From Pohlia nutans (Eukaryota; Streptophyta; Bryopsida; Bryales; Mniaceae), in the NCBI GenBank assembly GCA_022496805.1, contig CM040102.1:18445955-18509954 (forward strand): a stretch of 64,000 bases of DNA. Reading direction: 5' to 3'. The stretch's first letter is position 1. Each line of letters opens with the position of its first letter. The translations under genes and the position numbers were made by a program. The notes beneath the pieces were generated by a model that saw nothing but the letters and a program-made list of their open reading frames with translations, ran no database searches and had not been told where the DNA came from. Below, one piece after another: positions 693 to 61,493 of the stretch.

Positions 693-1232
693 CCCTTTAG
701 CGCGCCGGCGTCCAGATTCTGGACGTCGGATGAATTTCAGCAGCTCGATTTTTGTAGGTACCGGATGTTTTTCATCCATTTTTTTTTCTTTTCATTCTTG
801 TGCTAGTTGAATACCATTTGTACGGTATGGATCTTCCAAATAAGATAATGTGAATTTTTGAATATTTACAAAAGTGATTAATGTCAAGTTTCAATCTTAG
901 TTCAAAAAGAAAGACCTTAAATATGATTTTCCATAGTAAGTAGAATCAAATAATGGAAACCATACCATCTCGTAGTGCATGTCATTCTAATTTCATTACA
1001 ATATTTTTGAATATTTTTGTGTTAATTTTAGATTTTTAATTGAATTTCAAGAGAAAACCTTGCAAAATTACTTTTAAAATATTAATAATAAATATGATGA
1101 ATCCAACCGTACGGATGTTATCTACACATTGACATTTACAACTTTTTTTTGTACATCAACTCCATTTTCGTTTTTCATTGACCATTTTATAACAAATCTT
1201 TGAAAACAGTGTTGAATCGGGACGTTAAAGGG
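693..1232 (+). mobile_element. TTAA-flanked MITE, 540-bp family, copy 1
   Basis: Flanked by TTAA at 689-692 and 1233-1236. Ends are CCCTTTAGCGCGCCGG and CGGGACGTTAAAGGG. It is 540 bp and non-coding. A second copy of identical length lies inverted at 55881-56420 and matches along its length. Confidence 0.8.
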
Positions 1233-1236
1233 TTAA

Positions 1237-1997
1237 TGAGGAAATTACCTTAAACTGCCTCATTTACACCCTTGAAGGAGTCTAGTTGATTGCAGTGCTA
1301 AATTACTTCTTTCCAATTGTCTTAATTGCTTTGTTATCGCTTTGTGATTCTCATTGTCATTCATTGAAGTACTTAAATTTGCTTTATTAACACTCAATTT
1401 CACTTATTAATTACTACGTTGAGAGTTCACTTGAAGTGAGGTGGAATTGGGTCAATATTCCAAGGAGGAATTGGGTAAGGTGCATAATTGGGTCATGGAG
1501 GGCTTTAAAGTGTCTCCACCTTAGAAAATTCATAACTTTATTGAACCTTACTCTATAGTAGCTCCATCAAATCATATGTAATTTTTCTATAAACAGCCAT
1601 AGTGCCACTGAATTGAAATTGCACTTCGGTGAATCATATCTCCCTTTTTACTACATGTTTAGTCACGTAATTGGTTGACTTATCTTTTGAAAACAATTGG
1701 AGCTCTATAGATGCATTTATTCATGCATGTAGATGGAAGAAGCTTAAAGTTGTTTTCGCTTCATGACATTTAGTAGCCTTCATGCACATTGCCTTTACAT
1801 TCATCCAACAATATAGAAGTTCATTTAGAAAAGGGATGGACATTACCAGTTGTTGTTTGAGGTCATTGGATTGGAGTAAAAAAAAATGGAAAAAAAAGGA
1901 AAAAACAGAAACCACCAAAGAAGAAGAAGAAAAAAAATAAAAAAATAAAAAAATCTTGCCGGCACGTAGTCTAACACATGTAGAGCCATCCAACTTT

Positions 1998-2035
<38 letters not shown>

Positions 2036-2432
2036 TATTTTTTTTATTTTTTTTATTTATTTATTTATATTTTCAATTTAAATGTAAAAAAAGTTGTCAG
2101 CAAGCATTGGCCGGTGTGCTATTCCAGTTCAATTTATTGCACTAAATCACTACAACATCTTTTTTTTTTTATTATGTGTTTGAAGCTTTGAGATCTTATT
2201 GACCTTCCCCATTACCTTTGTGTAAAACAAAGAAGGAAGTGGAGGAATTGGAAAGATGCAGCAACTAACCGACGGGGTCAAAGAGAGCGGCAAGTCGCGT
2301 AGTCTCTGCTTCAGTATTTACCCTAGGTTTACTTAGATTTACTTTTATGGCTTTTATATACTAGTCATATAACTCCTTGAAAACGATGCGTTTCCGTAGT
2401 CTCTCCCCTGGAAGGACAGAGACAACAAACTA
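1237..2432. other. Spacer with (TA)n microsatellite
   Basis: No gene. It holds a (TA)n tract at about 2003-2032 followed by a T-rich (TTTA)n run, and a degenerate piece (1741-1815) of the dispersed repeat found at 11377-11503 and 63870-64000. Confidence 0.55.
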
Positions 2433-2849
2433 CGGTGGTTACCTCATTCCCAACTGAATAAGAAATACGGATATGAGGCATTGAAATTATTTAGTGTTAA
2501 ATTTTTTTAGAGATAGACAAAAAGAATTAAATTCCAGCACAAGTTGAAACATAATTTTTGGATGAAGAATGAATTAGTTACAAATTTTCAAAGTTGAAGT
2601 ATGACGCATCCCATTCACGTCATATAGGTACACCTCTTTCTGTCTGAAGAAGATTTGTACTGCACACACTAAAGATGCTTGAACCAACAACAACGAATCC
2701 ATAACCACACTTACACATACTAAAACCAACAAGAGAGAACCCATTACCAACTCTAACTCATGCTACAACCAACACCGTCAGAGCATTGATTGTGGATAAT
2801 GCCCCTACCTGTTGGTAAAAGGAGCCAGTTGGGAATGGGGTAACCACCT
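2433..2849. mobile_element. MITE with 23-bp TIR GGTGGTTACCCCATTCCCAA, copy 1
   Basis: Terminal inverted repeats GGTGGTTACCTCATTCCCAA and its complement bound 417 bp of non-coding DNA that contains AACCAACA-rich direct repeats. A TA precedes the left end. Copy 2 is at 22826-23266, where TA lies on both sides. Confidence 0.8.
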
Positions 2850-2854
2850 GGGGA

Positions 2855-3050
2855 GGGAGAACTAGCCCCTACACTGGGACCATCTGGTTTTCTCATTTGG
2901 GGGTCTGGGAGCTTTTTTTGGAAATTTTAATTCTATATTTGGGGTCTGCGACCCCAATTTTCTCTAGGATCACCCACCATGTTCAAAAATAGGGGCAAGC
3001 TTTTGTTTTTTTTTTCTATCTTTGGTCCCAGTGTGGGGGTTAATTCTCCC
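2855..3050. mobile_element. Small MITE with 28-bp TIRs
   Basis: Left end GGGAGAACTAGCCCCTACAC and right-end complement GGGAGAATTAACCCCCACAC agree at 25 of 28 bases including the following TGGGACCA. It sits directly between two other MITEs. A related, more diverged unit is at about 6050-6235. Confidence 0.6.
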
Positions 3051-3066
3051 AATCCTAACCACCTTA

Positions 3067-3431: not shown

Positions 3432-3789
3432 TTAGCTACTGCTTTTTCATGGATGATGATGTCAAATATTCTGCACATTCTCCTCAAAGACAAGGTAGAG
3501 CTAGTGAAGGCTACTGAATGTTGTGTTGTGTGAAGGGGTTTCACGACGTCGCATTTGTTCCCGTGAGAAATTACGTGGCAGTTGCGGGGGCTACTGTACA
3601 TGCCTGAATGCAAGGGGGCAACTCATCATTCCACCGCCGATTCAGCGACGCAGCAAAGCAGCAAGCAAAAGCAGCACCTCCAGAAGTACTCTCACTCTCT
3701 CTCTCGTGCTGCGCAATATTCCACGTCCCCCAGATTCCTACAGAATCCCCACCCACAAAACAAACTGTCAGTAGTACTGTATACAAGAA

Positions 3790-4318
3790 TAAGAGCATCC
3801 TCAATGGGGCCTCTAAACATGCCCGTATATTAAAAAAAAATTTGATGTAGATGAAATTAGAAATTCAAATTGTTGTTATTAGAATCATATTTTAACCTTT
3901 AAACGTCCCAACATCCACAAACTGGATCACGAACAGATTCAAAGGCTCATAACTTTCTCGGATGATTTTCATCCAAGTCACCTTTGAAAGCCTATTAAAT
4001 TCTCTACCAATTGCAATAAATCTCTCGTAATCGGGAGTTGTTGATAATATTGAAGAGGTCTTCAACTACAAGTATGTCAAATTTGTTGGGTAGATTTTAT
4101 GCTTTGCAATTGTCTTCTCATGTACATTTGAGCCATGCTAATATCTACTTTTGAGGCTAGGATCTACTTCTGTTCAAAGGGTTGGTACGTTTAGGGGTTA
4201 AAGTTAAGTAGAATAGACCAAAGAAAATTTTGATTTGTACATTGGATGATTAAGATAAACCCCATTATCCCTTGAACGTATAGAGGGTCTTTAGAGGGCA
4301 ACCCAAAGAGCATCTCTA
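3790..4318. mobile_element. Diverged GAGCATCC-ended element hosting a TTAA MITE
   Basis: Outer ends GAGCATCCTCAATGGGGCCT and, inverted, AGATGCTCTTTGGGTTGCCC are similar but diverged. Nested inside is the TTAA-flanked element 3896-4197. Confidence 0.4.
3896..4197 (+). mobile_element. TTAA-flanked MITE, short relative of the 580-bp family
   Basis: TTAA at 3892-3895 and 4198-4201. Ends are CCTTTAAACGTCCC and GGTACGTTTAGGGG. Its first part resembles the 580-bp elements at 28159 and 59321, so it is probably an internal-deletion derivative (302 bp). Confidence 0.7.
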
Positions 4319-5534: not shown

Positions 5535-5538
5535 TTAA

Positions 5539-10300: not shown

Positions 10301-12724
10301 CAACTTGGAGCTCGTGTCTAAAATTGAAGATAGAGGGTATCTTCTTCCCTTGGAGCTTTGATTTCGGTTACACTGAAAGAGGGCATGCAGTCAGACTTCT
10401 TGAAATTTTGTGGGTTAAAACACCTGTTCTGTTTTTGGTTAACTCTATTACACTCATTCTTTTCACTCAGTGTTTGAATCCCTTAGTGCCTGAATAGCAA
10501 GTCTATTTTGAGGAACTATTGTTAATTATAGTAATTTCTAAACATATCCCTACCATCCATTATTGTAGGCCATACTCTCTACTTTCTAAAACTATGGCCT
10601 ACAATCCATTATTGTAAGCATGTTACCTTTCTGGTGGATGTTGTATTTGTGTCATGTAATTTTCAAGAAATGTGAAATTTAGGAATTACTATGGTAGACC
10701 TACACTTGTGAAAGCAGTGAGTATAGTTGGGGAGTTCGTGACATGGTACCTGGTTTGATCATTTTGCAGGTTGGCGAAATGGGTTCTGGAGCACTTGCAA
10801 TATCACTTCCGTTTTCCTGCGTCTTGGGTCTGCTTGCTGCCGTCACGGCCTCTAACCTTGGTAGGTCACTAACTCCATCTGAACCCCACTTACAGTGTTT
10901 TCCAGTACTGTGTAATAATACCAGCATTGTCATGTTTTCTATGCATTAAGACAAGGTAGAAGCACCTAATTGTGTTAATGCTCTAAGAATGCAATTTATT
11001 ACAGAATGTGTTACTCCCTCCGTCCCAAAGTTATTGTCCAAGTTTTTGGCGTGTTTTAATTCAACACAATTTTTTGCCAAAAAAACCGTCTCAGTACTTG
11101 AAAAATGGTCTATCTTCAATAGTAGTATGTAGTTTTTGTGTCACTCTTGTTGTCCGCCCTGTTTGAAGTGGACAAAGCTCACGTTTGAAGTATAAAACAT
11201 AGGACAAATATTGCAAAAAAATTTTGCCAAAAACTTGGACAAAAACTTTGGGATGGAGGGAGTACTAGGCAAAGCCATAGATCACACTTGAGAGTTGTCA
11301 ATTTTCCAATCTTGTGTGGACCGAGGAGATGTGTTCATAACATTTAGTAGCATGCATTATCTCTGCCTTGGCTCTTCAGTAGATAGTGTGGAATATTCCA
11401 CACCCAACAGTACTTCATCAGTAGCTAAGTGGACAGGTAGAGGGTTATGAGTAGAGTGCATGAAGGAAAGGCAGTGGACATGAAGGCTACTGAATGTTAT
11501 GTTTGTCTCCGTGTGTGCAGTGGAAAGGCGGTATGTATGGCTGTACGCCACGTGTCAACTTGCGCTTGTAGTCTGCTTTGCTCACATTTTCTATGACGTG
11601 GTAGGTGCTCATTGGCCACCAAATCTTCTTGTGTGCTCCACCCAACAATTTTTATTTTACAGTTTTAAAAGACAATCCCCATTTGAATTTCTTTGTACAC
11701 AACATAACATTCTATAACGTAGAGATTTTGTCCCTTAGGCCTTCTGTAACACCTCACAAGATGATGGAATATCCTTTATGTATTTGGACAAGGATTTTAA
11801 TTGTTCACTAAGATCTCATTAGCTAACGGATGTGTGAAAGTTATACGTAACCATACCTAAATTGCAACCCTGCAAAATCTTGCACAATGCGTACATATTG
11901 ATTTTGAGAATGTACACCACCTCAATATTAGAACTCGTGTTAGTTTTAGATCATTTACCAAAAATACTTTGAATACTTATTACTTTTGCATATGGTATTC
12001 AAAGAATGCATTCTTCAGTGCATTGGAATCTTCTTTGATTTTCCAACATGAATATTTAAAATTATGAACATTCTAATAATAGAAATCATGCTCAGTGCTT
12101 AATCCCTAAAGGACCAAGTATTCATGGTTTTAAAAGGACCAAGGATTCATGGTTTTAAAATGACAAATTCAATTAATCATATTGTGAAATATATAATTCA
12201 CATGAGACTAAATTTTGTATCACTAGAATCAGTGAAGAATAATGCATATGATGGTCAAGAAACAAAAAATATTGAACAAAAGGCAGTCCACATAGAACCT
12301 ACTCAAAACTGCTAAAAAAAAAATACGAGGCTTCTTGGTCTTTTAAGGGTTAAAGTGTTGCAATTAGGTGTGGTTACTTTAGCGGTAGATGATTGGAATA
12401 TGTTGAGTTTCCAGTTGGAGAGGATGTGTAACCTGTGGTTAAATTTGATTTGAGCAGGTGCATGTGGAGTCCGTGTTGACAATATTATTGTCTACGTTTG
12501 TGGGGTTTGGAGTTGCCATGGTGGCAAGTACCCTGATCATAGAGTACCATAATTACAAGAGAAGGACAATGGCGCCAGTTCAAGAGGGAGAGGGAGGTGG
12601 CACCCTTGTACAAACACCGGCAGAATTAATTCCAGGCACACAACCAGCTGGAGCTCAACAACAGGACCATGTGGTGGTGCAAATGGAGGCTCAGACTAAC
12701 CCACTTCATGGTCCTGCCACCTAA
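7396..12724 (+). CDS. RINGv (MARCH-like) membrane E3 ubiquitin ligase
   Basis: Eight exons, read by me from splice sites and frame: 7396-7446, 7825-8034, 8297-8507, 9227-9521, 9951-10023, 10770-10860, 11521-11600, 12458-12724. All introns are GT-AG, phases agree, and the product is 425 residues. The N-terminal 155 residues are low-complexity, rich in Ser/Pro/Thr. A C4HC3 RINGv finger follows with C174, C177, C193, C195, H203, C206, C219 and C222, and a Trp four residues after C206. RINGv domains bind an E2 and ubiquitinate membrane targets. After the finger comes a Pro-rich linker, then four hydrophobic stretches in exons 5-8 (for example VLVMLSMLVYFCFLEQLL), which match the tail of the plant RING/FYVE/PHD superfamily rather than animal MARCH proteins. 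The tail after the last helix is Gln/Thr-rich. Introns 6 and 7 carry MITEs. I chose the first ATG because it opens the frame that splices into exon 2. The substrate is unknown. The exon 1 boundary is the least certain. Confidence 0.88.
7533..9190. repeat. Related sequence blocks shared by introns 1, 2 and 3 of the RINGv gene
   Basis: Blocks TGTAGGAGTGTG(A/C)TTTTTGGGAG (7535, 8687), TTGAAGGGA(C/T)AGTA (7643, 8217, 9073), CATTCAAAGATCAA (7673, 9110) and GTTGGTAACAGG/GTCGGTAACAAGG (7728, 9176) recur in order in different introns. The exons between them are not similar, so this is not exon duplication. Confidence 0.55.
9513..9935 (+). repeat. Imperfect tandem duplication across the exon 4 donor of the RINGv gene
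   Basis: Units of about 200 bp, 9513-9714 and 9715-9935, both start AACACACGGTAATAG and continue with CTCTTCTCCCTGCAAACAGC and GGAAAGTTCAGAGGGC. The second copy repeats the last exon-4 bases and its 5' splice site (GT at 9723). Confidence 0.8.
10050..10196 (+). repeat. Dispersed repeat in RINGv intron 5
   Basis: Over 90% identical by eye to the complement of 50700-50852, including CCGAAAAGAAGAGAAAATAC and GCAAACTGGCATGGTTTCCA. No terminal repeats are obvious. Confidence 0.75.
11014..11262. mobile_element. Stowaway MITE in RINGv intron 6
   Basis: Left end CTCCCTCCGTCCCAAAGTTA and right end TTTGGGATGGAGGGAG are flanked by TA at 11012-11013 and 11263-11264. CTCCCTCCGT is the classical Stowaway terminus (Tc1/mariner type). 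The termini carry extended inverted repeats around TTGTCCAAGTTTTTGGC. 249 bp, non-coding. Confidence 0.93.
11377..11503 (+). repeat. Dispersed repeat next to exon 7 of the RINGv gene
   Basis: About 130 bp, roughly 85% identical to the complement of 63870-64000 (AGCTAAGTGGACAGGT, GAAGGAAAGGCAGTGGACAT, GAAGGCTACTGAATGTTATG). It ends 17 bp before the exon 7 acceptor, so the branch-point region lies in or beside it. Confidence 0.75.
12103..12349 (+). mobile_element. TTAA-flanked MITE, GGACC family, in RINGv intron 7
   Basis: TTAA at 12099-12102 and 12350-12353, ends TCCCTAAAGGACCAAG and CTTGGTCTTTTAAGGG. 247 bp with an internal direct repeat (GGACCAAG(G/T)ATTCATGGTT twice). It serves as the empty-site reference for the nested copy at 25757. 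Confidence 0.8.
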
Positions 12725-14178: not shown

Positions 14179-14760
14179 CCTTTAAATGTCAAAGCAAGCC
14201 CCATGGGCTTTTTATGAAAGAATAATTTAGGAAAGAAGTAGTTTCCCTTACCCAAAACAAACGAGGATTGGTGCATTGGAAAACTACTAAAAAAGCGAGT
14301 TAAATTCTCAACTTGCGTCTCATTTGAAAGATTGTGGAATCATCCTCAAGCAATCAAAGTAATCGATTTAACCCTTAAACGTCCCATGGGGATGGTATAT
14401 ACGTTGTCGTATGATTGAGATTTACTACCAACAAGAAATTCTAAATTGGAATCTTAATAGTTCATTAGAACCGCATTGATGTATATTTCAACTTCTCTTC
14501 TCCACCCAAATCCATTAAAGATGTGGATCCGTTCTAAATACAACCAAAATACACCGTATTCTACTGGTCGCCATGGCACATTCAGACGTTTAGGGGTTAA
14601 ACAGGAGTTGAGGTTGGGCAGCTGAGGTCGTTTTTAAAATGGTGCAACAGTGTTGCAGCAGTGGCTAGTCAGGTAGCCAAGAGAGCTAGTTTATTTTTTT
14701 CTTCCAAAAATTTAAATGCCTTCGGGGTTGCCCCGCCCTAGCCCTCTTGACGTTTAATAG
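14179..14760 (+). mobile_element. TTAA-flanked MITE, 375-bp family, split by a nested element
   Basis: TTAA at 14175-14178 and 14761-14764. Its halves (14179-14371 and 14601-14760) align to the uninterrupted copy 25802-26176. The interruption is the 225-bp element 14372-14596. Confidence 0.85.
14372..14596 (+). mobile_element. TTAA-flanked MITE, 225-bp family, nested
   Basis: TTAA at 14368-14371 and 14597-14600, ends CCCTTAAACGTCCCATGGGG and CAGACGTTTAGGGG. Exactly 225 bp, as is the copy at 26818-27042. Confidence 0.9.
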
Positions 14761-25378: not shown

Positions 25379-25756
25379 AAAGAAAGGGTACAAATGCTGC
25401 AGAGCGAGAACCAATGCGGCTAATAAGCAGGAAGTGGGTGGAGTACTGGCGGCAAGGTGGGTGACGAGGGCGTGATTAACGTTGCGCGCTGATTGTGCGG
25501 GAATGTAGTTTAGTAGGTGCCAACTTTTCTAGCTCGGCAAGGCTGGAGCTCCTGTTTCGATCTGCTAATTCGGGAGCAAGGTTCCGTTTCCAATTCCAGT
25601 TGGACTTCCGCATTCCCCGTTTGGTCATTGACAGCGTTCGCCCCGCTCCTTCGAATAGCCCCTGGTGAGGTCGAGCATGTTTGCACGTGTACGGTTCGCC
25701 CTCTGTATGTGGTTTCCCTTGGGACTAGAATATTAACGCATTTATCATGAGGTTAA

Positions 25757-26366
25757 CCCCTAAAGGACCAAGGATTCATGGTTTTAAAATGACAAGTTTA
25801 ACACTTAAACGTCAAGGTAAGCCCCATGGGCTTATTTAAAAGAGAATAATGAAGAAAAGAAAGTTGATTTTCTCAACCAAATCAAGCGAGGATTGATGCG
25901 TTGAAAAGCTACTCAAAAAGCGATCTAGATTCCAAATTTTCGCCTCATTAATTTTGAGAGATTGTGGAATTGTTGGTAAGCAATCAAAGTTATCAAATTG
26001 AACAAGTTTTGAGGTTGGGGCAGCTAAAGTACAGCAGTGCTACAGTGCTATTCTGCAGTGCAGTGCATAGCCGTTTTTTGCAAAATAAATAAATAAATAA
26101 TAAAAATAAAATTCTTCCTCCAAAAATTTAGATGCCTTCCGAGCTGCCCTGTCCAGGTTGTCTCGACGTTTAAGGGTTAAACGATCATATAGTGAAAACT
26201 ATAATTTGAATGGGATCAGATTTTATATCACTGGAATTAGTGAAGAATATTACATATGTTGAATAATTGAAAAAAGAAAATTTAACAAAAAATAATCTAC
26301 ATAAAACCTACTCAAACTTACTGAAAAACACATGAGCCACTTGATGGCCTTATGGTCGTTTAGGGG
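25757..26366 (+). mobile_element. TTAA MITE of the GGACC family, split by a nested element
   Basis: TTAA at 25753-25756; the right flank is TTAC, a one-base change. Its two halves match the uninterrupted 12103-12349 copy, with the 375-bp element 25802-26176 between them. Confidence 0.85.
25802..26176 (+). mobile_element. TTAA-flanked MITE, 375-bp family, nested
   Basis: TTAA at 25798-25801 and 26177-26180, ends CACTTAAACGTCAAGG and CTCGACGTTTAAGGG. It carries the same CAGTGC-rich palindromic zone as its relatives. Confidence 0.9.
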
Positions 26367-26399
26367 TTACGGTCCCCTAAACGTTCCATGGGGATAGTA

Positions 26400-26704
26400 A
26401 GGTTGAGACACCTAAAACCGATCAAATAAAACACGTGCTATACTTGGGATAAATGAATCGATATTTTGATTATTTACCTCTTTTAACACTAAAAAATTAA
26501 GAAGTTTTCATATTTAATTAAAAAATTTGATAATTATTTGAATAAGTGCAAATTTTTAAAGTGGAAGTTGTAGGTTTACCAAAAACCGATCGTATGCTCT
26601 AATGTTCAAATGAGGTGCATCTTCCCTTTCAAAATCTAGAAATTAGGCAAGAATCTAGAGTGGTTGGTCTTTGTGTACCCGGTCGAGAATGGGTGTCTCA
26701 ACCT
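26400..26704 (-). mobile_element. 305-bp TA-flanked MITE, copy 1
   Basis: Ends AGGTTGAGACACC and complement, TA at 26398-26399 and 26705-26706. The host element gives the empty site GGTATATACG, showing that TA is the duplicated target (Tc1/mariner type). Same length as the copy at 31082, which is in the opposite orientation. Confidence 0.88.
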
Positions 26705-26817
26705 TAAATACGTTGTCGTATAATTAGCATTTGCCACTAACAAGAATCTTTAAATTTGGATGTAAACAACTCACTAGAACCGCATGAATTTTACTTTGTT
26801 AAACTCAAACCCATTAA

Positions 26818-27042
26818 TTCCTAAACGTCTGATAATGCCTTTGCGGCAAGTAGAATACAACGTATATTCCTTGTATTTGGAATGGATCGACACCTTTAAT
26901 GGGTTTGAGTTCAACAAAGAAGTTGAAATTCAAATCAATGCGATTTTAGTGAGTTATTGAGATCCCAATTTAAAACTTCTTGTTGGTAGTAAATGCCAAT
27001 TATACGAAAACATATTTACTATCCCCATGGGACATTTAGGGG
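26818..27042 (-). mobile_element. 225-bp TTAA MITE inserted into a member of its own family
   Basis: TTAA at 26814-26817 and 27043-27046. It interrupts the parent within CCATTAAAG, seen uninterrupted in the 14372 copy. Opposite orientation to its host. Confidence 0.9.
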
Positions 27043-27128
27043 TTAAAGGTGTGGATTCATTCCAAATACAAAAAAAACATGCCATATTCTACTTGTCGCA
27101 AAGGCATTTTCAAATGTTCAGGGGTTGA

Positions 27129-28158
27129 GGTTTCCATAATCATATTCGCATTAGAGTTATTCAAAAAAAAAGAACTTGTTTTCAAGCGGAGTTCAAGTGG
27201 AGTTCTCTTCCAATACTTGTGATTTTTGATAAGCATATAGTTTCCAATGGTCGGAGCTCTTAGCTTAGGGGAACATGTGGGAACTCTCCTTTAGCATTGC
27301 GGAGGTCACAAGTTTTAATCTCAACGATGATGCAAGGCCTTATTTTAAATTAGTATCCAACTCATCATAGACTAGTTTTGCAATCTTTTAAATTTAAAAC
27401 AAGTTTAAGGTGAGTTTAAGGTTTCTTTCCACTTTGAGACACTCTTTTTGGTTAACTCTGTTGTGAAGAAGTTAATCTTTATAAAGTTATTGTTCATATT
27501 TAAGGGTTTCAAACCGTCTATAAGTGATATCTCTTTTGGCAGTAGATACTTGTAAAGTTTAATTCATGAGTTACAAACTTATCATGAGGTTGAAGATTTT
27601 ATAATCCAATTATGAGGAGGTTCATCTTTATAAAGTTAATATTAGTCGATTTAGTCCGCCCTATGGCATTTCTACCTGGTGACTCTGTATATTATTTTCC
27701 TAGCAGTTTATTTGTTCATTTTGTGCCAAAATAAAATATAATAAAATTTTATTTTCGTTACTAAAGGGTTTCAAACCATTTATACTCCTTTGTCCCATAA
27801 TAGGCATATTGTATCTTGAAAATAGAAGACTTAATTTTGATGTTGTAGTCCATTGGTTTGGACCTTCAGCCAATAAGAGTAGTAGTTTGAGCAAACAAGA
27901 AGCTTAACTTCTAAATGCTTGAGGGATAAGGAAAAAACTTAGATGTGTCATAAATGTTACTTCTTCAACTTTGATGAAGTAAGGTCCAAAAGAGAAAATG
28001 ATAAGGATGATGTTTAGTAATTATTTGTACAATCAAACTTTAAAAAAAAAAATTAAATCCTCATTTAATGAATTGAGAAGAAATTATTGTTGAATATTCA
28101 CCAAAATTTTAAAAATTATTTGTACAAGTTGAAAATTGGTATGATTCTAGAATTTTAA
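27129..28158. other. AT-rich repeat spacer
   Basis: No gene. Contains one member (about 27470-27620) of an imperfect dispersed repeat (ATCTTTATAAAGTTA, CTTGTAAAGT, GTTACAAACTTATCAT) that recurs at 29045-29135 and 29690-29870. Confidence 0.45.
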
Positions 28159-28738
28159 CCCCTAAACGTCACAACGTCCAGAAACTGGACGACGAATGAT
28201 TTCAAAGCCTTCTCACGTTCTCATCAACGCTTGGATGATACTCATCCAATTTTTTGGAGATTCTTCACCAAGTTGTTGTCCTATCTAATGGCTAGATTTA
28301 GTCATACTAGAGTACATATTTTTCTAAAATTACAAATGTAGAAGTATGTCAAGTCGTTGACCGAGCCAAAATTGCATTGACTCTAGTTCAAAGTGGAATC
28401 GTGAAAAATGAGGTCATAAATTTAAGAAACACAAAAATTTCAAAGTATCACCATTTTTTAGAGTATCTCATTTCAAACTCATTCCAACAAATTTTACTCA
28501 AAAAATATTGAAATTTAGTTTGTAATCGAATTTACAAGGAATTTTTAATTTTAACTTTCAAAATTTATAATTAAATATTGATGATTGTATTAGTGAATGG
28601 AACCGTACGGATGGAATCTAAAATTCAAAATCTAGAACTTTCATTTGTATATCAATTCCAGAATATTCTTCTAAATAGTAATTTATAATGCTTTTTCTCA
28701 AATTGTCAATTCCAGGGACACCCTGGTACGTTAAGGGG
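28159..28738 (+). mobile_element. TTAA-flanked MITE, 580-bp family, copy 1
   Basis: TTAA at 28155-28158 and 28739-28742, ends CCCCTAAACGTCACAACGTC and TGGTACGTTAAGGGG. It is near-identical to 59321-59900 over 580 bp. A degraded, truncated relative spans about 30589-31005. Confidence 0.88.
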
Positions 28739-29141
28739 TTAAAAGCAATCTTTTCAAAGGATATAACATCATTATTTTTCCAAAATATTAAGTTCAATTT
28801 ATAACACTAGGACAATGTTGAGGTCTTTGTTTTTGAAAAATTCTCGAAGGTGGAGACTAACTAGGATCGACATGATTCAAATTGGATTAGAAAGTTGACT
28901 TGATTTCCTATTTGAAAATATCTTGTACATTTTATATTAAAAAAATTCATCATGAAAAAAAATCACAAAATGGTTATTTAGTCAACTAGGAGTTAATATG
29001 GGACATATTGGAAAGGCGTTGAGGAAACTTAATAAAGGAAAAAAGGAGTAAGTGATATTTCTTGGAAGTAGATAAAAGTAAACACTTGTAAAGTATTAAC
29101 TTGTGAGTTACAAACTTATCATAAAGTTGAGGCAAGCTTAA

Positions 29142-29671
29142 CCCCTAAACGCTCAAACGGCCATTTTCTGGTCGTTGCCCGAATCTACGGGGCTACCTAG
29201 AACCAAAAAAATGATTTTTAAAATTTTAAAAATACTACATCAAGTCTACTTTCCAACCCAATTTGAATTATGGCAATTCAAGTTAAACTCCACCGGAGGG
29301 AATTTTTCAAAGGAGATCACCTCAACATTGTCTTAGTGTTATAAAATTTGCTATTTAGGGAAAGTAATGATGTTCCCTCCATCATTTCTTTTTCTTTTTT
29401 GAATTTTACAATAGATAGCCCAACTCTAACCAATCATACAAAATTTTGAAGTCTAAACTTAAAAATTATAATTTATACAAATTTGCAAAGGTTATCGCTT
29501 TTAAATTCATTAAAAATGATCTAAATTTATTTTTGGAAATTTGACCGTACGAATAATTTGTAGAAATGATACTCTATATTTTGTCTATTAAACCAAACTT
29601 CATCAAACATATGGAAGGCACATATTATAACACATCTATGTTTTGTCCAACACCCCTCGAGCTTTTAGGGG
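29142..29671 (+). mobile_element. TTAA MITE, 530 bp
   Basis: TTAA at 29138-29141 and TTAG at 29672-29675; ends CCCCTAAACGCTC and GAGCTTTTAGGGG. Inserted into the dispersed repeat described at 27129-28158, pieces of which lie on both sides. Confidence 0.7.
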
Positions 29672-29675
29672 TTAG

Positions 29676-33080: not shown

Positions 33081-33284
33081 TTATTGTTGCAAGAAACGCA
33101 TGGCGCGACTCGGACATTCACCATTCAAGGTCCCCACTGCATCACCATAATTTCCTGCATCAGCATAAATTTCCTGCAAGAAATTCTCGGAGATTGTTTC
33201 CAAGTGCCATGGGCGTGATCACATGAGTGACAAAGACCGCAGCTGTGCCATAAAGGCGGCCATGAGATTTGCATCTGCGGTGCA
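32968..33284. repeat. Long inverted repeat of the B3 pseudogene 5' part
   Basis: The arms are 32968-33078 and 33174-33284, about 110 bp each at roughly 95% identity, separated by about 95 bp. Each arm carries the block running from the ACCGCAGATGCAAATCTCATG end to the AACAATCTCCGAGAAT end. The left arm is the pseudogene sequence itself; the right arm is an inverted copy. A transcript crossing it would fold into a long hairpin. Confidence 0.85.
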
Positions 33285-34490: not shown

Positions 34491-34793
34491 TTAATTCCCA
34501 AACAAAAAGTTGCACCATGTGGATGCCGAGGTGGTGGCTCTTGGTTGACCAACACTATGTTGACTTTTGGATAGTACTATACTGGCTTTTGAATAGCACT
34601 GTAGTGTCTTGGTTTTCATGAGAGGTTTAATTCTGAAAATAGTGCGCTTACTGCACCAATCAGAAGCACTCAACTTTTCAAGATATAGACGTAATTAAAA
34701 CGTTCCTAGGAGCTTTTTAGGTTTCTGGAACGAGCCCCCCAATCCTAGGGATCGGAAATTGGGAGTGGGCGGAAATATGCACCGCTACCTTAA

Positions 34794-34980
34794 CCCTTAA
34801 AGGACAATGCAAGGCCCACGGGCTTAGTTATATTTTGGGAGAATCTTGCTCATAACTTCTATTCCATTGCATCAAATGGGGTTTTTAAAATGCCAAACTG
34901 AGCACCTTAGAGAGATCCTTAAAATGAAATTTAAAAGAGATTTTGGATATAGTATCAGGAAAGCATATGTCGTTTAAGGG
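34794..34980 (+). mobile_element. TTAA-flanked MITE, GGACA family, 187 bp
   Basis: TTAA at 34790-34793 and 34981-34984; ends CCCTTAAAGGACAATG and TATGTCGTTTAAGGG. Shortest complete TTAA element here. Confidence 0.82.
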
Positions 34981-34984
34981 TTAA

Positions 34985-35791: not shown

Positions 35792-37048
35792 ATGAACTCC
35801 GAGGAAGAGCAAGGGCCGAGTGTGCACCAGGAGGGAGAGAATGAAGTGGTTGCAAGGAAGACCGAAGGAGATGAGTGGATATGGAGCAAGCTTCCTCCTG
35901 AGCTCCTAGTCAAAGTGTCGTTCCTGTCGGTTCCGACCTTATTTCGATGTCGTGCAGTGTGCAAGACATGGAATAACCTAATCTCATCCCCTGAATTTGC
36001 AGCTCTTTGTGCACAAGCACCTGTACAGAAATCGCAGGTAATTCTTGTAGGGCTTCCAGGTCTGAGCTCGTTATGGTTGGCGTACATGTTCGATGCGCGT
36101 GCCAACAAGTGGTGCCATCCCATGGATCTGAAATTTCTGCAACCCTGCTGGGAGCTCGCCTTCGGAGACGCCACTAAGGGGCTCATCCGCCGTCGGGTTC
36201 TCGCTGCTTGCGGATCGATGATTTGCGTATCAGCCACTCACGTCAAAGGCTCCGAAGTCTTGGCGGCTTGCAATCCTGTCCGCAAGACTTTCGAAGAGCT
36301 TCCGCCTGTAGGTTCTTGCGCCGCTTTTGGCGCCTGTGGTTTGGTTCACATAATTCCTGACACACCCATGGCAAGCTACAGAATCTTCTACTTGGAATTC
36401 GTATTCGATCCCCGCGACACAGGCTCAGAGGACAAACGCTCGCGATTTCACGTGTACGAATCTACCTCAAAGAAATGGAGATCACTGAACAGCATTGCGA
36501 AAGGACTCAACCACGAACGATCAGTGGATCGTTGCTCCATGGTTCACTTCAACAATGTGATTTACGTACTCTGGTACGAAGACTCGCCAACCTCTTACTT
36601 GCAAAATGGAAAACATGTCCTCATGCCATTCCATTTGCTGCAAGACGAGTGGAGGGAGGTTGGTTGCGAATTGTCGGCATCCCTCCGACGGGTAAAATTG
36701 GTGGTGAGTGGACCTTGGTTGCTTCTCGTGGGAGCTTTGGAAGATACCTATCATATCTGGAAGCTTGAAGTCTCTTCCAACGAGAACTATGAAATTGCGC
36801 GCATGCCCGACTTCTTCACTCGGAGGATGCTGGATGATCCATTCAATGCTCTCATATGTGGCTATGGCGAGGCCGTTTTCTTCATGTCAGCCAAAGGCAA
36901 GCCAGTGTTGTACGACTGCGCCACTGGAATATGGCAACGCTTGCCTTCACTCAGTAACACTCTGCAAGGCACATTGCCGCAATTCAACCGGAGCAATCTC
37001 TTCGAAAATTTCATTGACTTTTGTTTGGATGTACCATTATCCTATTGA
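35792..37048 (+). CDS. F-box protein with beta-propeller-like C-terminus
   Basis: An intronless frame of 418 residues. An acidic leader is followed by an F-box at about residues 30-75 (WSKLPPELLVKVSFLSVPTL then FRCRAVCKTWNNLISSPEF), the Skp1-binding module that makes it the substrate receptor of an SCF ubiquitin ligase. The rest contains repeated beta-rich blocks ending in Trp or Lys-Trp (ANKWCHPMDL, STSKKWRSLN, DEWREVGCEL, HIWKLEV, TGIWQRLPSL), typical of F-box-associated kelch/galactose-oxidase-like propellers in plants. The ATG at 35792 is the first in frame with the F-box. The gene is GC-richer than its flanks and undamaged. The substrate is unknown. SCF activity requires cullin neddylation, the pathway of the AXR1 gene in this window, but that link is general. 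Confidence 0.9.
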   Translation: MNSEEEQGPSVHQEGENEVVARKTEGDEWIWSKLPPELLVKVSFLSVPTLFRCRAVCKTWNNLISSPEFAALCAQAPVQKSQVILVGLPGLSSLWLAYMFDARANKWCHPMDLKFLQPCWELAFGDATKGLIRRRVLAACGSMICVSATHVKGSEVLAACNPVRKTFEELPPVGSCAAFGACGLVHIIPDTPMASYRIFYLEFVFDPRDTGSEDKRSRFHVYESTSKKWRSLNSIAKGLNHERSVDRCSMVHFNNVIYVLWYEDSPTSYLQNGKHVLMPFHLLQDEWREVGCELSASLRRVKLVVSGPWLLLVGALEDTYHIWKLEVSSNENYEIARMPDFFTRRMLDDPFNALICGYGEAVFFMSAKGKPVLYDCATGIWQRLPSLSNTLQGTLPQFNRSNLFENFIDFCLDVPLSY

Positions 37049-49031: not shown

Positions 49032-51002
49032 GCTTGAGTGATTTGATAGGCAAACAGACGGACGCGCGTGTGCTGACCCGTTCTTTTCCTTGAATACTGG
49101 AAGCTTACAATATTTATAAGTAAAGGTCGGAACTTGAAAGCTGGACCCTCCTGGCGAATTCCCGCTTACCTGCCCTACTATGAGCAAACTGATCTTCCAA
49201 ACTGCGCTATTTTAAGTTTAAGTACATCGATTACAACAATAATAGTTTCAGCCCTTCAGAAATTGGAATCCTTTGGAAAAATTCAGCATTCGTCTCATGT
49301 AATTTCGTCTTCTATTTTTAATGTTAACAAATTCTCGACTGTACAGGTATTCTATTGATAACAGCAGCGTAGTCACCAGATGTTGACCTGCAAACTTGAT
49401 GCCGTGCTTTTGAATACGACTGCAGGTACAATTTCAACCCTGAGGAATACAGTAATTACTGAATTTGAATTTACATTCAAAGTAATTGAATTATGAACCG
49501 GGCACGTGGAATGTCAAAAAGGAGCAGTTGTGGTAAATACATCGTGGGTCCCAAACTCCGGAAAATTGCTAATTATGGTGCATAGTTTCGCTTTCTAGTG
49601 CATTCTTTTTCCGAGTTTTATTGACTGGTTTTCCAAATTTAGTGATGTGGGGCCTCTAATTCCGAGAATGTTTCGCGGAATGTTTATCCTGTAATTGGTA
49701 CTAGACAGTTGGTTTGAAACGGTGGCCCCGACCTTTCCACCGTATACGGGTTGGGACCCCACTTGCCCAGTATTGGTTGCAGTTTCGAATGGCCGGGATG
49801 CAAATCATGCAGTTTGATGAATCTTTCTGGAGGAAACGTAGATTTCTCCCTGGTACGATGTACCCAGGAAGAACATGGAAATTGTACCTGCTTACGCATG
49901 ATTGACCATCATAGATTCAGTCTAAGGAATCTGTCCTGCGTAGCTGCAATGAACATTTGGGGATCACCAAATGTTGTGGAAAAATGTGCACAACCAGTAC
50001 TGATCCATCTCAACTGGTTGCATGCCATGGAACAGTGTCTGTGTTTATGAGCCATCAGATAAACTTCCATTCGAAATATACCGTGGCAGGTGTCAGGTGA
50101 AGAAGATTGTCGGGGTGTATAGAATCTAGAGAATGTGGATTTTTTTAATAGTGAAAAAACTAACAACTCCTGTAGAGTACAGTGCCCTAACAATAACGTT
50201 GTCGCTTGTCACTCACAGCCATAAAATTGGTATTTTATTTTATGTTTTTGAAATAAATAAAGGCAAGCCTTTACTACCCAAAGAAACATACAATTGAGTT
50301 AACCGAAAACAGATGATGAGTTTGACCTCTCTATAAGTTAATCGTGGAAATGGATTTCTGTGTGGTATTTGAGTGTAGCCGAAAACAAAAGCAAAGTTCT
50401 AAAACTCTAGTTCTCCATGGACTTCGGGACTGCCAGAATTTCAAAGTATCTAAATTTACAAAAGTAGCCAAATGGGCTGCATTCAAGCCTGGCCAAAAGG
50501 GCTGCAATCAAGCTGTTTTTCAGGGATGTTTCTCAGGGCTCTTCTATTTCAGGGTGACGAAGGGGACATCGTGACAACATGCGATGAAGTCTGACAACAC
50601 GAGATAAAAACAACATGAAATCGAGAGGAAGGAGACAACTAGTAACTGGCTTTCTTCAGCCAACACAACTATTGACACAAAACTCCCCTTAGAATGAGTT
50701 TTATAGTCTTTTTGACGGCAAAACTAGTTCTCACTGCTTTCTATTTTTAATTCTTTGGAAACCATGCCAGTTTGCTTGGCTGCCTTAGATACGAGTCAGA
50801 CTCACCTCACCTAACATGTATTTTCTCTTCTTTTCGGTTAACTCTAATATAAACCCTGACTTGACAGGTCCGGCAAGGCAGGACAATGACTAGGATCCTA
50901 CCTAATTGAGCTAAATTTAATGCTACTAAAATTTCACATTGGTATTCCGTTAACCTAGGCAACAAGAAGATTCTTGCAACACCATTGTTTTTTAACCTTT
51001 AA
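49032..51002. other. Spacer with unassigned frames
   Basis: A 99-codon Cys-containing frame at 49751-50050 has no recognised domain. The dispersed repeat matching RINGv intron 5 occupies 50700-50852 in inverted orientation. Confidence 0.4.
50700..50852 (-). repeat. Dispersed repeat, second copy
   Basis: Complement matches 10050-10196 at over 90% by eye. Confidence 0.75.
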
Positions 51003-51473
51003 CTCTTAAAGGACCAAGTGTCTAACTAGGACAATTCAATGTTCGGGTAGGTTCTCACAATGTCAATTTTTATTTTTACTTTTAAAATAAATTATGTGAG
51101 TTCGGTATATCAATACAAAAATGGGGATCTAGTTTTTTATTATGACTTTTTAAGTGGAAGTTATGGAGCAAAAGGGGTTCTTTGGAGGAGAATGGGCAGT
51201 GCTGGCAAGGCTCAAAATAAACCTCATAAATTATTATTTTTCAACTCTAATCGTAGGATCTTGTTTTAAATTACGATGAGAGTGCATGGTAAAATTTTCA
51301 TAGAAATTGACCATACATATTGCAAGGTTATAGCATTTGAAGTAAAAAGATGAAATTGCAATCTGTATGATATTTTCTCACCGTCTTTGAAGACATGGGA
51401 AAATTTGTTAAATTGGTCCAAAAAAATCTTAAATTAAATATAAATGTTTAATTTGGTATTTTCTATCAAAAGA

Positions 51474-51524
<51 letters not shown>

Positions 51525-51591
51525 TAAGAAAATGAATGAAAGAGGTGAAAATGATGCTCAAAAACAAGAAAAACTTGCGATCCTTTAGGGA
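51003..51591 (+). mobile_element. TTAA-flanked MITE, GGACC family, 589 bp
   Basis: TTAA at 50999-51002 and 51592-51595; ends CTCTTAAAGGACCAAG and GCGATCCTTTAGGG. An (AT)n run fills 51474-51521. Confidence 0.72.
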
Positions 51592-51595
51592 TTAA

Positions 51596-52737: not shown

Positions 52738-53098
52738 TAGAGTTATCCTTAAAGTCACCTTGTATTTGAATAAGATACCGTGAATTTTGCTTTAATGTAC
52801 TCTTATTTGTTCACCCCAAATAGTTAAAAAACATGAAAAAGCTTGGTGGTCTATCATTATTAGTCTGTAAGAGCTTGGTGGTTTTCAAACTCAAGGGAAA
52901 CTAGTTTAGCCGTCAAGAAAGACGGCTAGACTAGTTTTCCAAGAGTTTGAAGACCACCAAGCTCTTACACACCTAAAAATGATAGGCCACCAAACTCTTC
53001 CCTACCTTTTAACTATTTGGGGTGAACAAATAAGAGTACATTAATGCAAAATTCACTGTATCTTATTCAAACACAAGGTGACTTTAAGGATAACTCTA
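52738..53098. mobile_element. Near-perfect 361-bp foldback element
   Basis: Two arms of about 175 bp centred near 52918. The left arm runs from AGAGTTATCCTTAAAGTCAC to AACTAGTTTAGCCGTC; the right arm is its complement with few mismatches. TA adjoins both outer ends. Loop of only a few bases. Confidence 0.88.
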
Positions 53099-55164: not shown

Positions 55165-55880
55165 TTCACCCAACGCGAATCTGCGTTCGTCAAATAAGTT
55201 TTTGGTAGCTATTATAGTGTGCTACTGTAAAAAAAATAAAAAATTAACCTAACGCATGCAAGAAGCTGCTCCAACGCATTTTGGGTGCCGCAAGAAATTT
55301 GCACTCTGCTAACGTACATGCATTGGCCAAAAGCAGGAAGTGACAAAGCTCTGACACTACAAAAAATTGTATATTATTTTAAAAATTTACCTTGCAACAT
55401 TCCAGGAACACGACGCAAGTGCTGGAGCTTCTTGGCCATCGTTAGTATTTCACTCACCTGAGCCACCTCATGATCGAGAAGGCCTTTCTTTTTCAAAATA
55501 CAGGGGTTATGCATGTGTATATATGTGTATCCTTGTGACTCGTACGACTGCATTCTGTATCCACCTGCACATCCGTGAGTAAATGATTCAGAATCATGTC
55601 CCAACAATATTAATGCTCCCCACAGAGAGACATAGTGAGTCACCACCAAAAGACTATGCTTCCTCTATCCCAACCTTCCCCATACAGACAGGCTGCTGCT
55701 GGGGCACAGAATACTTTATGTGAGGTGGAGCATTGTCAACATTCAGGAGCTTCTGTGAACGTTGTTTTCCTTCCAACATAATGATGTGGAATATTTTGCA
55801 TCATTTCATCTCCCAATGAAATGGTGTGGAATATCCACATCAATAGTTGTAGGACAGGGGTACAAAGTAAGAGCAATTAA

Positions 55881-56420
55881 CCCTTTAACGTCTCGATTCA
55901 TCACTGATTTCAAAGATCCGTTATAAAATGTTTGATGAATACCAAAAATGGAGTTGATGTACAAAGCAAAGTTGTAAATGTCAATGTTTAGATCACATCT
56001 GTATGGTTGGATTTATCATATTTCTTAGTAATTTTTTTAAATTAATTTTTCAAGGTTTTCTTTTGAAATTCAATTAAAAATCCCAAAGTAACACAAAAAA
56101 ATTAAAAATTGTTGTAATGAATTTGAAATAACATGCACTACGAGATGGTATGCTTTCCATTATTTGATTCTACTTATTTTGGAAAATCATGCTGAAGGTC
56201 TTACTTTTTGAACTAAAAATGAAACTTGACATCAACCACTATTGTTATTTTTCAAAAAATCACAATATCTTATTTTGAAGATCCATACCGTACAAATGGT
56301 AGTCAACTAGCACAAGAACCAAAGAAAATTTGGATGGATGAAAAACTGTACAGGATGTAGTAAAGAGAAGGATTTCAATCTGTTCGTCGTCCATTATATG
56401 AACGCAGGCGCGTTAAAGGG
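55881..56420 (-). mobile_element. TTAA-flanked MITE, 540-bp family, copy 2
   Basis: TTAA at 55877-55880 and 56421-56424; ends CCCTTTAACGTCTCG and GGCGCGTTAAAGGG. Inverted copy of 693-1232 with identical length. Confidence 0.88.
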
Positions 56421-56439
56421 TTAACTACGGTGAACAATT

Positions 56440-58560: not shown

Positions 58561-58564
58561 TTAA

Positions 58565-58787
58565 CCCCTAAACGTCTGAATGTGCCTTTGCGACCAGTAG
58601 AATACGGTGTGTTTTGGTTGTATTTGGAATGAATCCACCCTTTAATGGGTTTGAGTTCAAAAGAGAAGTTGGAATTTAAATCAATGTGTTTCTAGTGAGT
58701 TATTGAAACCCCAATTTAGAGCTTCTTGTTGGTAGCAAATGTCAATTATACCGCAGCATATATACTACCCCATGGGACGTTTGGGGG
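58565..58787 (-). mobile_element. TTAA MITE, 225-bp family, second in the chain
   Basis: Shares single TTAA junctions with both neighbours (58561-58564, 58788-58791); 223 bp. Confidence 0.88.
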
Positions 58788-58791
58788 TTAA

Positions 58792-59015
58792 CCCCTAAAC
58801 GTCCCACGGGGATAGTACATACGATGTCATATGATTGGGATTTGCTAGCAACACGAAAATCTTTATTGGGTCTCAATAACTCACTAGAACCGTATTGATC
58901 TAAATTCCAACTTCTTTTTTGAACTGAAACCCATCAAAAGTGAGGATCCATTCCAAACACAACCAAAACACACCGTATTCTACTGGTCGCAAAGGCACAT
59001 TCAGACGTTTAGGGG
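58792..59015 (+). mobile_element. TTAA MITE, 225-bp family, third in the chain
   Basis: TTAA at 58788-58791 and 59016-59019; 224 bp; opposite orientation to the preceding copy. Confidence 0.88.
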
Positions 59016-59320
59016 TTAATGCTTTTCCATGGTTCCATGTTCAGGTAATTGAAGGACATGAAGCGGGTGATGACATGGACCAGGGCCACACAGGTCATGA
59101 AGCAACCTGGCCAGTCTGAAACACATGAAATACAATGTATTTTTAGAAACTAGCTGGGGAGACAAAAATACGAGGTCAAAGTTACATGCAAAATTTGACT
59201 GAACATAGCTTTTACACCACTGTAGTCAAGGAGAAAGGAGAGAAAAGGAGAGAAAGGAGTATGCAAAAGTTAGTTTGTCAATACCCAGAACCACCAATTG
59301 GAAATGGAATAGATCTTTAA

Positions 59321-59900
59321 CCCCTAAACGTCCCAGCGTCCAGAAACTGGATCACGAACGGATTCAAAGCCTTCTCACGTTCTCATCAATGCTTGGATGA
59401 AACTCATCCAATTTTTTGGAGATTCTTCACCAAGTTGTTGTCCTATCTAATGGCTGGATTTAGTCATACTAGAGTACATATTTTTCTAAAATTACAAATG
59501 TAGAAGTATGTCAAGTCGTTGACCAAGCCAAAATTGCATTGACTCAAGTTCAAAGTGGAATCGTGAAAAATGAGGTCATAAATTTAAGAAACACAAAAAT
59601 TTTAAAGCATCACCACGTTTAAGAGTATCTCATTTCAAACTCATTCCAACAAATTTTACTCAAAAAATATTGAAATTTAGTTTGTAATCGAATTTAGAAG
59701 GAATTTTTAATTTCAACTTTCAAAATTTATAATTAAATATTGGTGATTGTATTAGTGAATGGAACCGTACGGATGGAATCTAAAATTCAAAATCTAGAAC
59801 TTTCATTTGTATATCAATTCCAGAATATTCTTCTAAATAGTAGTTTATAATGCTTTTTCTCAAATTGTCAATTCCAGGGACACCCTGGTACGGTTAGGGG
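59321..59900 (+). mobile_element. TTAA-flanked MITE, 580-bp family, copy 2
   Basis: TTAA at 59317-59320 and 59901-59904. Matches 28159-28738 nearly base for base. Confidence 0.88.
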
Positions 59901-59904
59901 TTAA

Positions 59905-60441
59905 CCCCTAAAGGACCAATCAACCCTATTATGCTTGATTTTTGGTCAAACGCCCCAAAAATCAAGTGTTTTTAGTTTTATTGTAATTGGTGTTTCATTA
60001 GATGTTTAAGTTAAGTTAATCTACATCTTTTGACCATTGGGATTGGAGAATAGATTTCATTTGAATTTTTTTCTACCGTTGAGAAATTTGAATTTTGAGT
60101 GTTCAAAATACAAAGGGCTTTCTAAAAATGATCCAATCATAGGTCTCTTTTAATTTTTTCACTTTCAGTTTTTTACTCCTTGTAAATATTACTTTCATCT
60201 ACATTGAATATAATTTTTCATATTAAATTTGACAAAACTATATTTATTTTGAATTTTTACCTTATTTTCATGATAAAATTTGTAAATATTCAAACTTTTT
60301 TCCAATCATGTTGAAAATTTTGTCATACCTTCATAATGTTGATGACTATCTATGAAAAATTATAAATCATACAATGTGATATTTCAAGTATGCAAATTAT
60401 AGTGCTTTGACTTTTACAAAAGAAGTGAGGACCTTTAGGGG
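59905..60441 (+). mobile_element. TTAA-flanked MITE, GGACC ends, 537 bp
   Basis: Shares TTAA 59901-59904 with the 580-bp element; right TTAA 60442-60445. Ends CCCCTAAAGGACCAATC and GAGGACCTTTAGGGG. Confidence 0.82.
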
Positions 60442-60690
60442 TTAATGATAGCAAGCAGTCTATTACTGAACGTAATAGTTCTTCCCTGTGTAGCCTAGCC
60501 TTAACACATAAGAGCATCCGCACCTCTGCACTCTAAAGCTGACTTGCTAAAATTATCTATTATACAATACAGTATGGTTTGTCTCACACGACCGTTCCGC
60601 GCTGGAATCCGTCCATGTGCTCAACGGGACGGGTCCCACTAGTTCATCTACATTTGAAGAGTTCTTGAACTTACACTCCCTTATCCTTAA

Positions 60691-61493
60691 CCCTTTAGTG
60701 CCCATGGTACTGTAGCTCAGAGCCCTGGATTTCAGTAGACTTTTTCACTGTGGTTGAGACTACCAAAAATAAAATGGGTTAAATTAGAAAGTAACCGTAC
60801 AATTCTATTCTCAACTCGAGAGCACACGTTTTATTAAAATTTGAGAATCATCCGATGGTGGGATCGCAAGATTATAGTATGTATTTGAACTGTATAATGC
60901 ACGTTCAAAAACGAGATTTTGGGGGGTGTGTGACTTCAAAGTTAAATATAATTTGAGGTAAATTTTCAAAAATAAAAGCAAAGAAGTTCAGCTATGCCCT
61001 ATGTCAACACCTCTCCCTTGCAATCTTTCATATCAAAAATAGACTCACACATAATTATTGTAAGATTTATAAGTGAAAGTGACTTCTCCATGTACGGTTT
61101 AGGACAAAATTTTATACGTTGAAAATTGACAGGAGTGGGTACATTAGTCAAGATCGGATTACACACGCTAATGGAAGATGAAGAAGAGAACACAATCCAA
61201 AAAAATAAAACAAGATAACAAACTTCCAAACACAAGAAATACTTCACAATATATATGTTGTATTTGTAAGTATTTACTGTATTTTCAAGTATTTGCAGTA
61301 TTTTCGCGTTCTGTTGATAGGTATTTTGATAGTTGTACAATTCCAAATTGAAAATTTCTTTTTCTGGAAGGTGCGTAATGTATGTGGGCAAATCTGAACT
61401 TCAAAACTGAAGTTCCAATTCTTCACGGATTCTCTGCTATTTGCATTTCAGACATTGTAGTGACCATAATGTGGTTTGCTGGACACTAAAGGG
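60691..61493 (+). mobile_element. TTAA-flanked element, GTGCCC family, 803 bp
   Basis: TTAA at 60687-60690 and 61494-61497; ends CCCTTTAGTGCCCATGG and GGACACTAAAGGG. Longest complete TTAA element here. A 130-codon AT-rich minus frame inside shows no transposase motif. Confidence 0.78.

Follow-up and report, generated by a model that had tools for sequence, protein, structure and literature searches.

piggyBac is a standard tool of genome engineering that was taken from an insect, and older classifications place it in animals and protists, not in plants. Might a plant nevertheless house such elements? We examined a 64-kb stretch of the genome of the Antarctic moss Pohlia nutans (C18:18445955-18509954; hereafter the window), in which we delimited 23 elements that have two ends and lack long reading frames. 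These are almost certainly non-autonomous piggyBac transposons, that is, miniature inverted-repeat transposable elements (MITEs), moved in trans by several piggyBac transposases that belong to longer elements. A population of piggyBac MITEs in a plant genome had been proposed from the letters of the window before any search was made (the sequence-only reading). The analysis supports piggyBac-type MITEs in a land plant, with the precision that this plant is a moss.

How does the locus compare with the closest described systems? With the piggyBac superfamily, as represented by Trichoplusia ni piggyBac (6x67), piggyBat (9c0f) and Xenopus Uribo2, the moss elements have in common the TTAA duplication, the CCC ends, the PF13843 domain, the DDD triad, a cysteine-rich C-terminus and the same predicted fold. 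They differ in their moss host, in the low identity of their transposases to frog Uribo2 (25–28%), in forming a separate group in the tree and in that many of their ends read CCCC rather than CCCT. The strict piggyBac end motif is given as CC[C/T]T in the excerpted text of PMC2872659. The same excerpt describes the CMITEs of corals, which are likewise piggyBac MITEs with a TTAA duplication, several families and arrays of adjacent elements, and of which one family partially matches a coding element. However, the coral families have a common interior and different ends, whereas the moss families have common outermost ends and different interiors; adjacent moss elements, moreover, belong to different families or lie in opposite orientations. 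The Kolobok/T2-MITE elements of Xenopus, as far as the excerpt of PMC6004289 goes, are also abundant MITEs that duplicate TTAA, but their ends are AGGRR (RR...YY), of the opposite polarity, and their transposase is another one. Mosses themselves offer a parallel in the Tc1-like PpTc1 and PpTc2: according to the portion of PMC4054914 at hand, these represent a type of DNA transposon formerly known from animals and fungi that has been amplified in a moss. They differ from the present elements in their TA duplication, CAGT ends and DD34E transposase.

Ends and target site of the window elements

What marks the ends of these elements? An intact TTAA stands at 42 of the 46 ends and leads into termini resembling CCCYTWAACGTC. 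The four departures are the right end of F2 (TTAC), the right end of H (TTAG) and both ends of the outer D element (CGGT and TTGA). Conservation is strong over about 12 bp inward of the TTAA, while the 8 bp outward of it have no clear consensus (21 of the 23 elements). Most of the ends examined (34 of 42) start with CCC, and CCCYTWAACG-like ends are common to all the MITE families. The end motif TTAACCCYTWAACGTC occurs at 38 sites of the window with at least 14 of 16 matches, and at none in 20 order-1 Markov shuffles. When a left-type and a right-type end (score at least 13) were required to lie 80–850 bp apart, 20 pairs were found, against a mean of 0.02 and a maximum of 1 in 50 shuffles.

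The elements cover 9,595 bp of the window (15.0%), or 9,285 bp once the 310 bp of a nested element of a different kind are subtracted. They appear to be non-coding, since the longest reading frame within them has 133 residues and a Pfam scan for transposase remnants in 10 of their 39 frames of at least 45 residues gave no credible match. Rfam, at gathering thresholds, had no match in the whole window, and the pattern of family D had none in bacterial and viral collections. The sequence-only reading had also counted 23 two-ended, TTAA-bordered elements. We reproduce the count and agree with its element lengths and termini; the two sets are perhaps not identical, several elements being degenerate or nested.

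If TTAA is the target, how did the sites look before insertion? Three nested insertions in the window can be compared with uninterrupted sister copies, and in each case the empty copy shows one TTAA-like site. D1 (14368..14600, plus strand, 233 bp) sits at TTAA in C2 (14175..14764, plus), which it splits; the one kept TTAA aligns, free of gaps, to the TTGA that four sister copies of C carry. C3 (25798..26180, plus, 383 bp) similarly splits F2 (25753..26370, plus) at TTAA, and the kept TTAA aligns to TCAA in the uninterrupted sister F1 (12099..12353, plus, 255 bp), which served as the empty site. The outer D element (26370..27128, plus), whose own TTAA is degenerate, is split both by the 310-bp element of another kind and, at TTAA, by Dn (26814..27046, minus, 233 bp). 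Here three of the four sister D copies read CCATTAAAG, with an exact TTAA, and the fourth reads CCATCAAAA. A fourth nest, that of A1 (28155..28742, plus, 588 bp) splitting H2 (27904..28996, minus, TTAA on both sides), aligns too loosely to serve as an empty-site comparison. At 58561, 58788 and 59901 two neighbouring elements have a single TTAA in common, which fits a TTAA that belongs to the target site rather than to the element itself.

The same picture is obtained outside the window. Family C gave 3,436 first-look candidates genome-wide. Scores were obtained for 40 of them, namely the copy in the window and 39 others at 91–94%, and 20 of those 39 were taken for comparison of their flanks. 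TTAA stands at 38 of their 40 ends, the others being TCAA and CTAA. Just outside the ends, identity between copies drops from 0.8–1.0 to a background of 0.2–0.4; the flanks are unrelated. A duplication other than TTAA in such flanks had been named beforehand as the observation that would tell against piggyBac, and the flanks came out for TTAA.

We do not claim an insertion preference for the TTAA of existing elements, the excess being only marginal. Exact ends lie back to back on one TTAA at 102 places in the genome, against 37–68 expected under independence with clustering uncontrolled. For the 20 C copies the figure is 5 of 40 (baseline per side, 4.6–5.1%; tail, 0.035–0.051), with local clustering uncontrolled.

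Transposases and coding elements in the moss genome

Does the genome encode an enzyme that could serve such ends? The assembly (697,796,988 bases in 332 contigs) was searched with the PF13843 (DDE_Tnp_1_7) profile, which gave 1,305 first-look candidates; the same search found no match in 14 control genomes. The 116 candidates that were scored are the best-scoring ones and not a random sample. All 116 lie above the curated cut-off, they are spread across contigs C1–C22, and 78 of them contain no stop inside the match.

Twenty-six transposase loci (L009–L034) were taken with their flanks for close reading. In 18 of these the frame lies within an element of 4.4–7.2 kb with TTAA-CC ends or CTAA variants. 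Paired TTAA-CC ends delimit L009, L010, L012, L013, L015, L017, L018, L019, L021, L022, L024, L026, L027, L028, L030, L031 and L032; L029, with CTAA variants, was delimited by homology. The ends of the coding elements include CCCCTAAACGCC, CCCCTCAAGGCC, CCCCTAACTGCC, CCCCTAAAGGACC and CCCTTAAACGTC. For loci read without a second copy to compare, the end pair was picked from many TTAA on the strength of its terminal match, and some of these pairs may be incorrect. Limits set by homology between copies, on the other hand, are independent of assumptions about ends. L009 and L018, on C14 and C12, are 99.4% identical over 5,038 columns, and their homology starts and stops at TTAA within one base. 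The same holds for L013/L024/L017 and for L012/L026; in L029/L030 the limits of homology lie no more than three bases from a CTAA or TTAA. L010 and L011 agree in their right ends and differ in their left ends.

The proteins are of the expected kind. Of the 20 moss transposases that were aligned, 19 have all three residues of the DDD triad; every one of the 20 has the cysteine-rich C-terminal tail, as do L029–L032. A profile of eight moss transposases, run against the PDB (E 0.01), retrieved only piggyBac 6x67 (E 5e-62) and piggyBat 9c0f (8e-56). The best model of the predicted fold has a predicted local distance difference test (pLDDT) score of 74.9; with this fold Foldseek placed 9c0f and 6x67 first (E 6e-23 to 2e-21; template-modelling scores, TM-scores, 0.56–0.66) and Tn5 transposase next. 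The check proposed with the sequence-only reading, a search of the same genome for a DDD transposase with a cysteine-rich C-terminus in elements with ends of this type, was carried out and found such enzymes. The finding named as contrary, a full-length relative encoding a transposase of another superfamily, was put to the test too, and the result came out for piggyBac.

Three of the loci, L014, L016 and L023, stand apart. Their transposase frames are 98.5–99.8% identical, no TTAA-CCC pair was found around them, and they resemble one another across several kb that include short tandem repeats. A segmental duplication, or copies unable to move, may explain them.

We observe the ends, the TTAA duplication, the history of insertion, coding elements with ends of the same type and conserved catalytic residues. 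How would the elements move? If they behave like known piggyBac elements, a DDD transposase would bind the CCCY-type ends, excise the element and join it into a new TTAA, leaving TTAA on both sides. The moss transposases presumably act on these MITEs, and the excision of moss elements may be seamless.

Families, parents and age

The interiors fall into about seven groups that are mutually dissimilar at the threshold used: A/B/X, C, D, F, H, K and N. The interiors of A, B and X have stretches in common; G has its first 41 bp in common with C, and M its first 19 bp with F. Is one enzyme responsible for all of them? The left 67 bp of B1 are 85% identical to the coding element L032, and the left end of K is 82% identical to L030 (56 bp, 57 columns), both far above shuffled ends. 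The first 33 bp of H match the left end of L027 at 85%, a moderate match. C is 80–84% identical to L031 over 32–35 bp, above shuffles at some C ends. About 20 bp of F and of M are in common with L030, and 28 bp of the right end of M with L027. The 20 moss transposases have mutual identities of 34–99.8%. Four different coding elements are thus matched, clearly by B and K and less strongly by H and C, so that a single transposase is unlikely. To judge from these sequence matches, the better reading would be that there are several lineages of transposase and that each has MITEs of its own.

The mechanism of the sequence-only reading was that one transposase type had moved many unrelated sequences, all families being served through a common 12-bp end. 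The ends are indeed common to all families, so that cross-mobilization is possible, and only B and K have a clear parent match that extends past the 12 bases. However, B, K, H and C point to four different parents (L032, L030, L027 and L031), and the transposases diverge to as little as 34% identity; we find a single enzyme improbable, and this part of the proposal is not supported. Could the elements belong to another superfamily altogether? Kolobok elements duplicate TTAA too, and an excerpt of PMC9587614 reports them from a chlorophyte and from rhodophytes. But Kolobok termini are given as 5'-RR...YY-3' in the excerpted texts of PMC9587614 and PMC6004289, a polarity opposite to that of the moss ends (5'-CCC), and it is piggyBac transposase that is encoded by elements with ends of this type. 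Kolobok MITEs are largely refuted by the polarity of the ends, and we give them hardly any credence. Tc1/mariner-like elements that duplicate TA at TTAA targets and have ends starting ACCC were considered as well. TTAA is a palindrome and cannot tell a duplication of TTAA from one of TA: a TA duplication with strict choice of TTAA gives identical junctions. Against this, TTAA is kept strictly at 42 of the 46 ends in the window and at 38 of the 40 ends of C copies, and elements bearing such ends carry the piggyBac enzyme. On target site and enzyme we reject Tc1/mariner, whose likelihood we put as low as that of Kolobok.

The palindrome is not the only observation that weighs against piggyBac elements moved by several transposases. 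The strict published motif CC[C/T]T is found at only 19 of 42 ends, and 17 read CCCC. Eight of the 26 loci (L011, L014, L016, L020, L023, L025, L033 and L034) are delimited at one end only or at neither. The homology of L011 to L010 starts at an inner TTAA, and L011 is without the second Asp, having N there. The frames of L033 and L034 stop before the cysteine-rich tail, and the remaining four of the five fold models have pLDDT scores of 57–65. As regards the parents, the match of C to L031 lies within the range of shuffles at several C ends, and in B, K, H and C it is mainly one end that matches. None of the 26 loci provides a parent for families A, D or N, and F, G, M and X have only short terminal stretches in common with coding elements.

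The other piggyBac MITEs are arranged along the window as follows. B1 (689..1236, 548 bp from TTAA to TTAA) lies on the minus strand relative to B2 (55877..56424, plus, 548 bp), to which it is 83% identical over its full length. X (3892..4201, plus, 310 bp) has its first 68 bp in common with A. C1 (5145..5538, minus, 394 bp) and C4 (34110..34494, minus, 385 bp) are 85% (full length) and 88% identical to C5 (58194..58564, plus, 371 bp). H (29138..29675, plus, 538 bp) has the TTAG right flank given above; G (34790..34984, plus, 195 bp) has a copy in L026, 128 bp long and 91% identical; K occupies 50999..51595 (plus, 597 bp). One TTAA is common to C5 and D2 (58561..58791, minus, 231 bp), and another to D2 and D3 (58788..59019, plus, 232 bp), D2 being 86% identical to D3 inverted. 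A2 (59317..59904, plus, 588 bp), to which A1 is 96% identical, has a TTAA in common with M (59901..60445, plus, 545 bp; ends CCCCTAAAGGAC and CCCCTAAAGGTC). The last element is N (60687..61497, plus, 811 bp; ends CCCTTTAGTGCC and CCCTTTAGTGTC).

How widely are such elements distributed? The exact 16-base end motif occurs 13,014 and 12,994 times on the two strands, 26,008 in all, where base composition predicts 1.7 occurrences and the reversed control gave 0. The density of exact ends in the window (14 in 64 kb) is about six times the genome mean (26,008 in 698 Mb). Scaling from this one dense window (14 exact ends, 23 elements, 9,090 bp) gives, very roughly, 43,000 elements, 17 Mb and 2.4% of the genome.

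Pairwise Kimura two-parameter (K2P) distances among window copies range from 0.04 (A) to 0.41 (C2), and the elements are nested in layers. For family A, 3,502 candidates were found genome-wide; besides the window's own, 39 near-full-length others were scored at 98–99%, and the search also gave one 54-bp fragment. The spread of K2P distances, together with the near-identical A copies, indicates repeated activity with one recent expansion, that of family A. The single ‘burst’ of the earlier reading is too simple in view of the K2P range and the layered nesting, although family A did expand lately (39 others at 98% or more).

Other repeats are present in the window. An element of 253 bp (11012-11264) has ends TACTCCCTCCGTCCCAAAG..., which we take to resemble the end of Stowaway (Tc1/mariner) MITEs known from flowering plants, here in a moss. 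The 310-bp element mentioned above occurs in two copies (31079-31389 and 26397-26708), whose ends, AAGGTCGAGGCACC..., are inverted repeats of 28 bp; to judge from the nested copy, this element may duplicate TA. Long hairpins at 52738-53098 and 32965-33287 have arms of about 178 and 113 nt, 88–92% complementary, and no recognised ends. One element end, CCCCTAAACG, includes CCCTAAA, the repeat unit of plant telomeres; this is probably a coincidence.

Descent and significance

Where do the moss transposases come from? Eight of them, used as queries, gave 126 proteins at E ≤1e-5. No protein with a plant name appears among the best 120 of these 126; nearest to the moss queries come JGI, ENA and Logan sequences without a species name, two of which are 79 and 83% identical to L032, and those bearing a species name come from fish, locust, bee and shrimp. 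A protein search with frog Uribo2 likewise gave none named as a plant's among the best 120 of 453. A quick tree was built of 67 rows, namely 22 moss sequences (the 26 minus four near-duplicates), 32 unnamed ones and 13 from animals. It is unrooted, comes from a short search with one support measure and a small animal sample, and the hosts of its unnamed rows are undeclared. One branch, with a Shimodaira–Hasegawa-like approximate likelihood ratio test (SH-aLRT) support of 100, has all 22 moss and 26 unnamed rows on one side and the 13 animals and six unnamed rows outside; the moss rows are interleaved with the unnamed ones.

These sequence relationships point to a likely old moss group of piggyBac. 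A wider reading seems to us an even chance: mosses would hold an old and diverse piggyBac group of their own, as might land plants or even the green lineage at large, with several transposase lineages that each have their own MITEs and were recently active. The recent activity is suggested by coding copies that lie on different chromosomes yet are 99.4% identical and, within one MITE family, by dozens of copies at 98% or more. Might the moss instead have acquired piggyBac by recent horizontal transfer from an insect or other animal, or might the assembly be contaminated? piggyBac is known mainly from animals, and the named relatives among the best 120 of 126 are animals. Yet the 116 transposase matches are spread over C1–C22, and the MITEs lie close to moss genes: the window holds an F-box frame (35786-37045) whose match to a Logan sequence is exact and whose identity to a protein of the moss Ceratodon purpureus is 79%, and NADH-glutamate synthase domains at about 39.9–47.4 kb on the minus strand. 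The identity to frog Uribo2 is low, as noted above, and the tree splits moss and 26 unnamed rows from the 13 sampled animals. Recent transfer or contamination is accordingly doubtful; an old horizontal transfer is possible.

In the open-licence literature searched we found no account of native piggyBac in mosses. Two statements tell against novelty. The simple summary of PMC10813416 has piggyBac isolated from ‘insects, fungi and plants’, and the plant review PMC10794571 counts PiggyBac among plant superfamilies; the excerpts of both are without a plant example. A Physcomitrella paper, in the excerpt of PMC5505980, discusses insect piggyBac as an untested tool in that moss. The Pohlia nutans genome paper (PMC9247546) assigns, in its excerpted text, 23.68% of the genome to DNA transposons and names DNA/CMC-EnSpm; the word piggyBac occurs 0 times in its main text.

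With its many transposase frames, its diversity of lineages and, roughly extrapolated, about 40,000 MITEs, this moss genome widens the documented range of piggyBac. The moss transposases are new candidates for use in plant cells. Whether piggyBac is an old resident of mosses or came by horizontal transfer becomes directly testable across bryophyte genomes.

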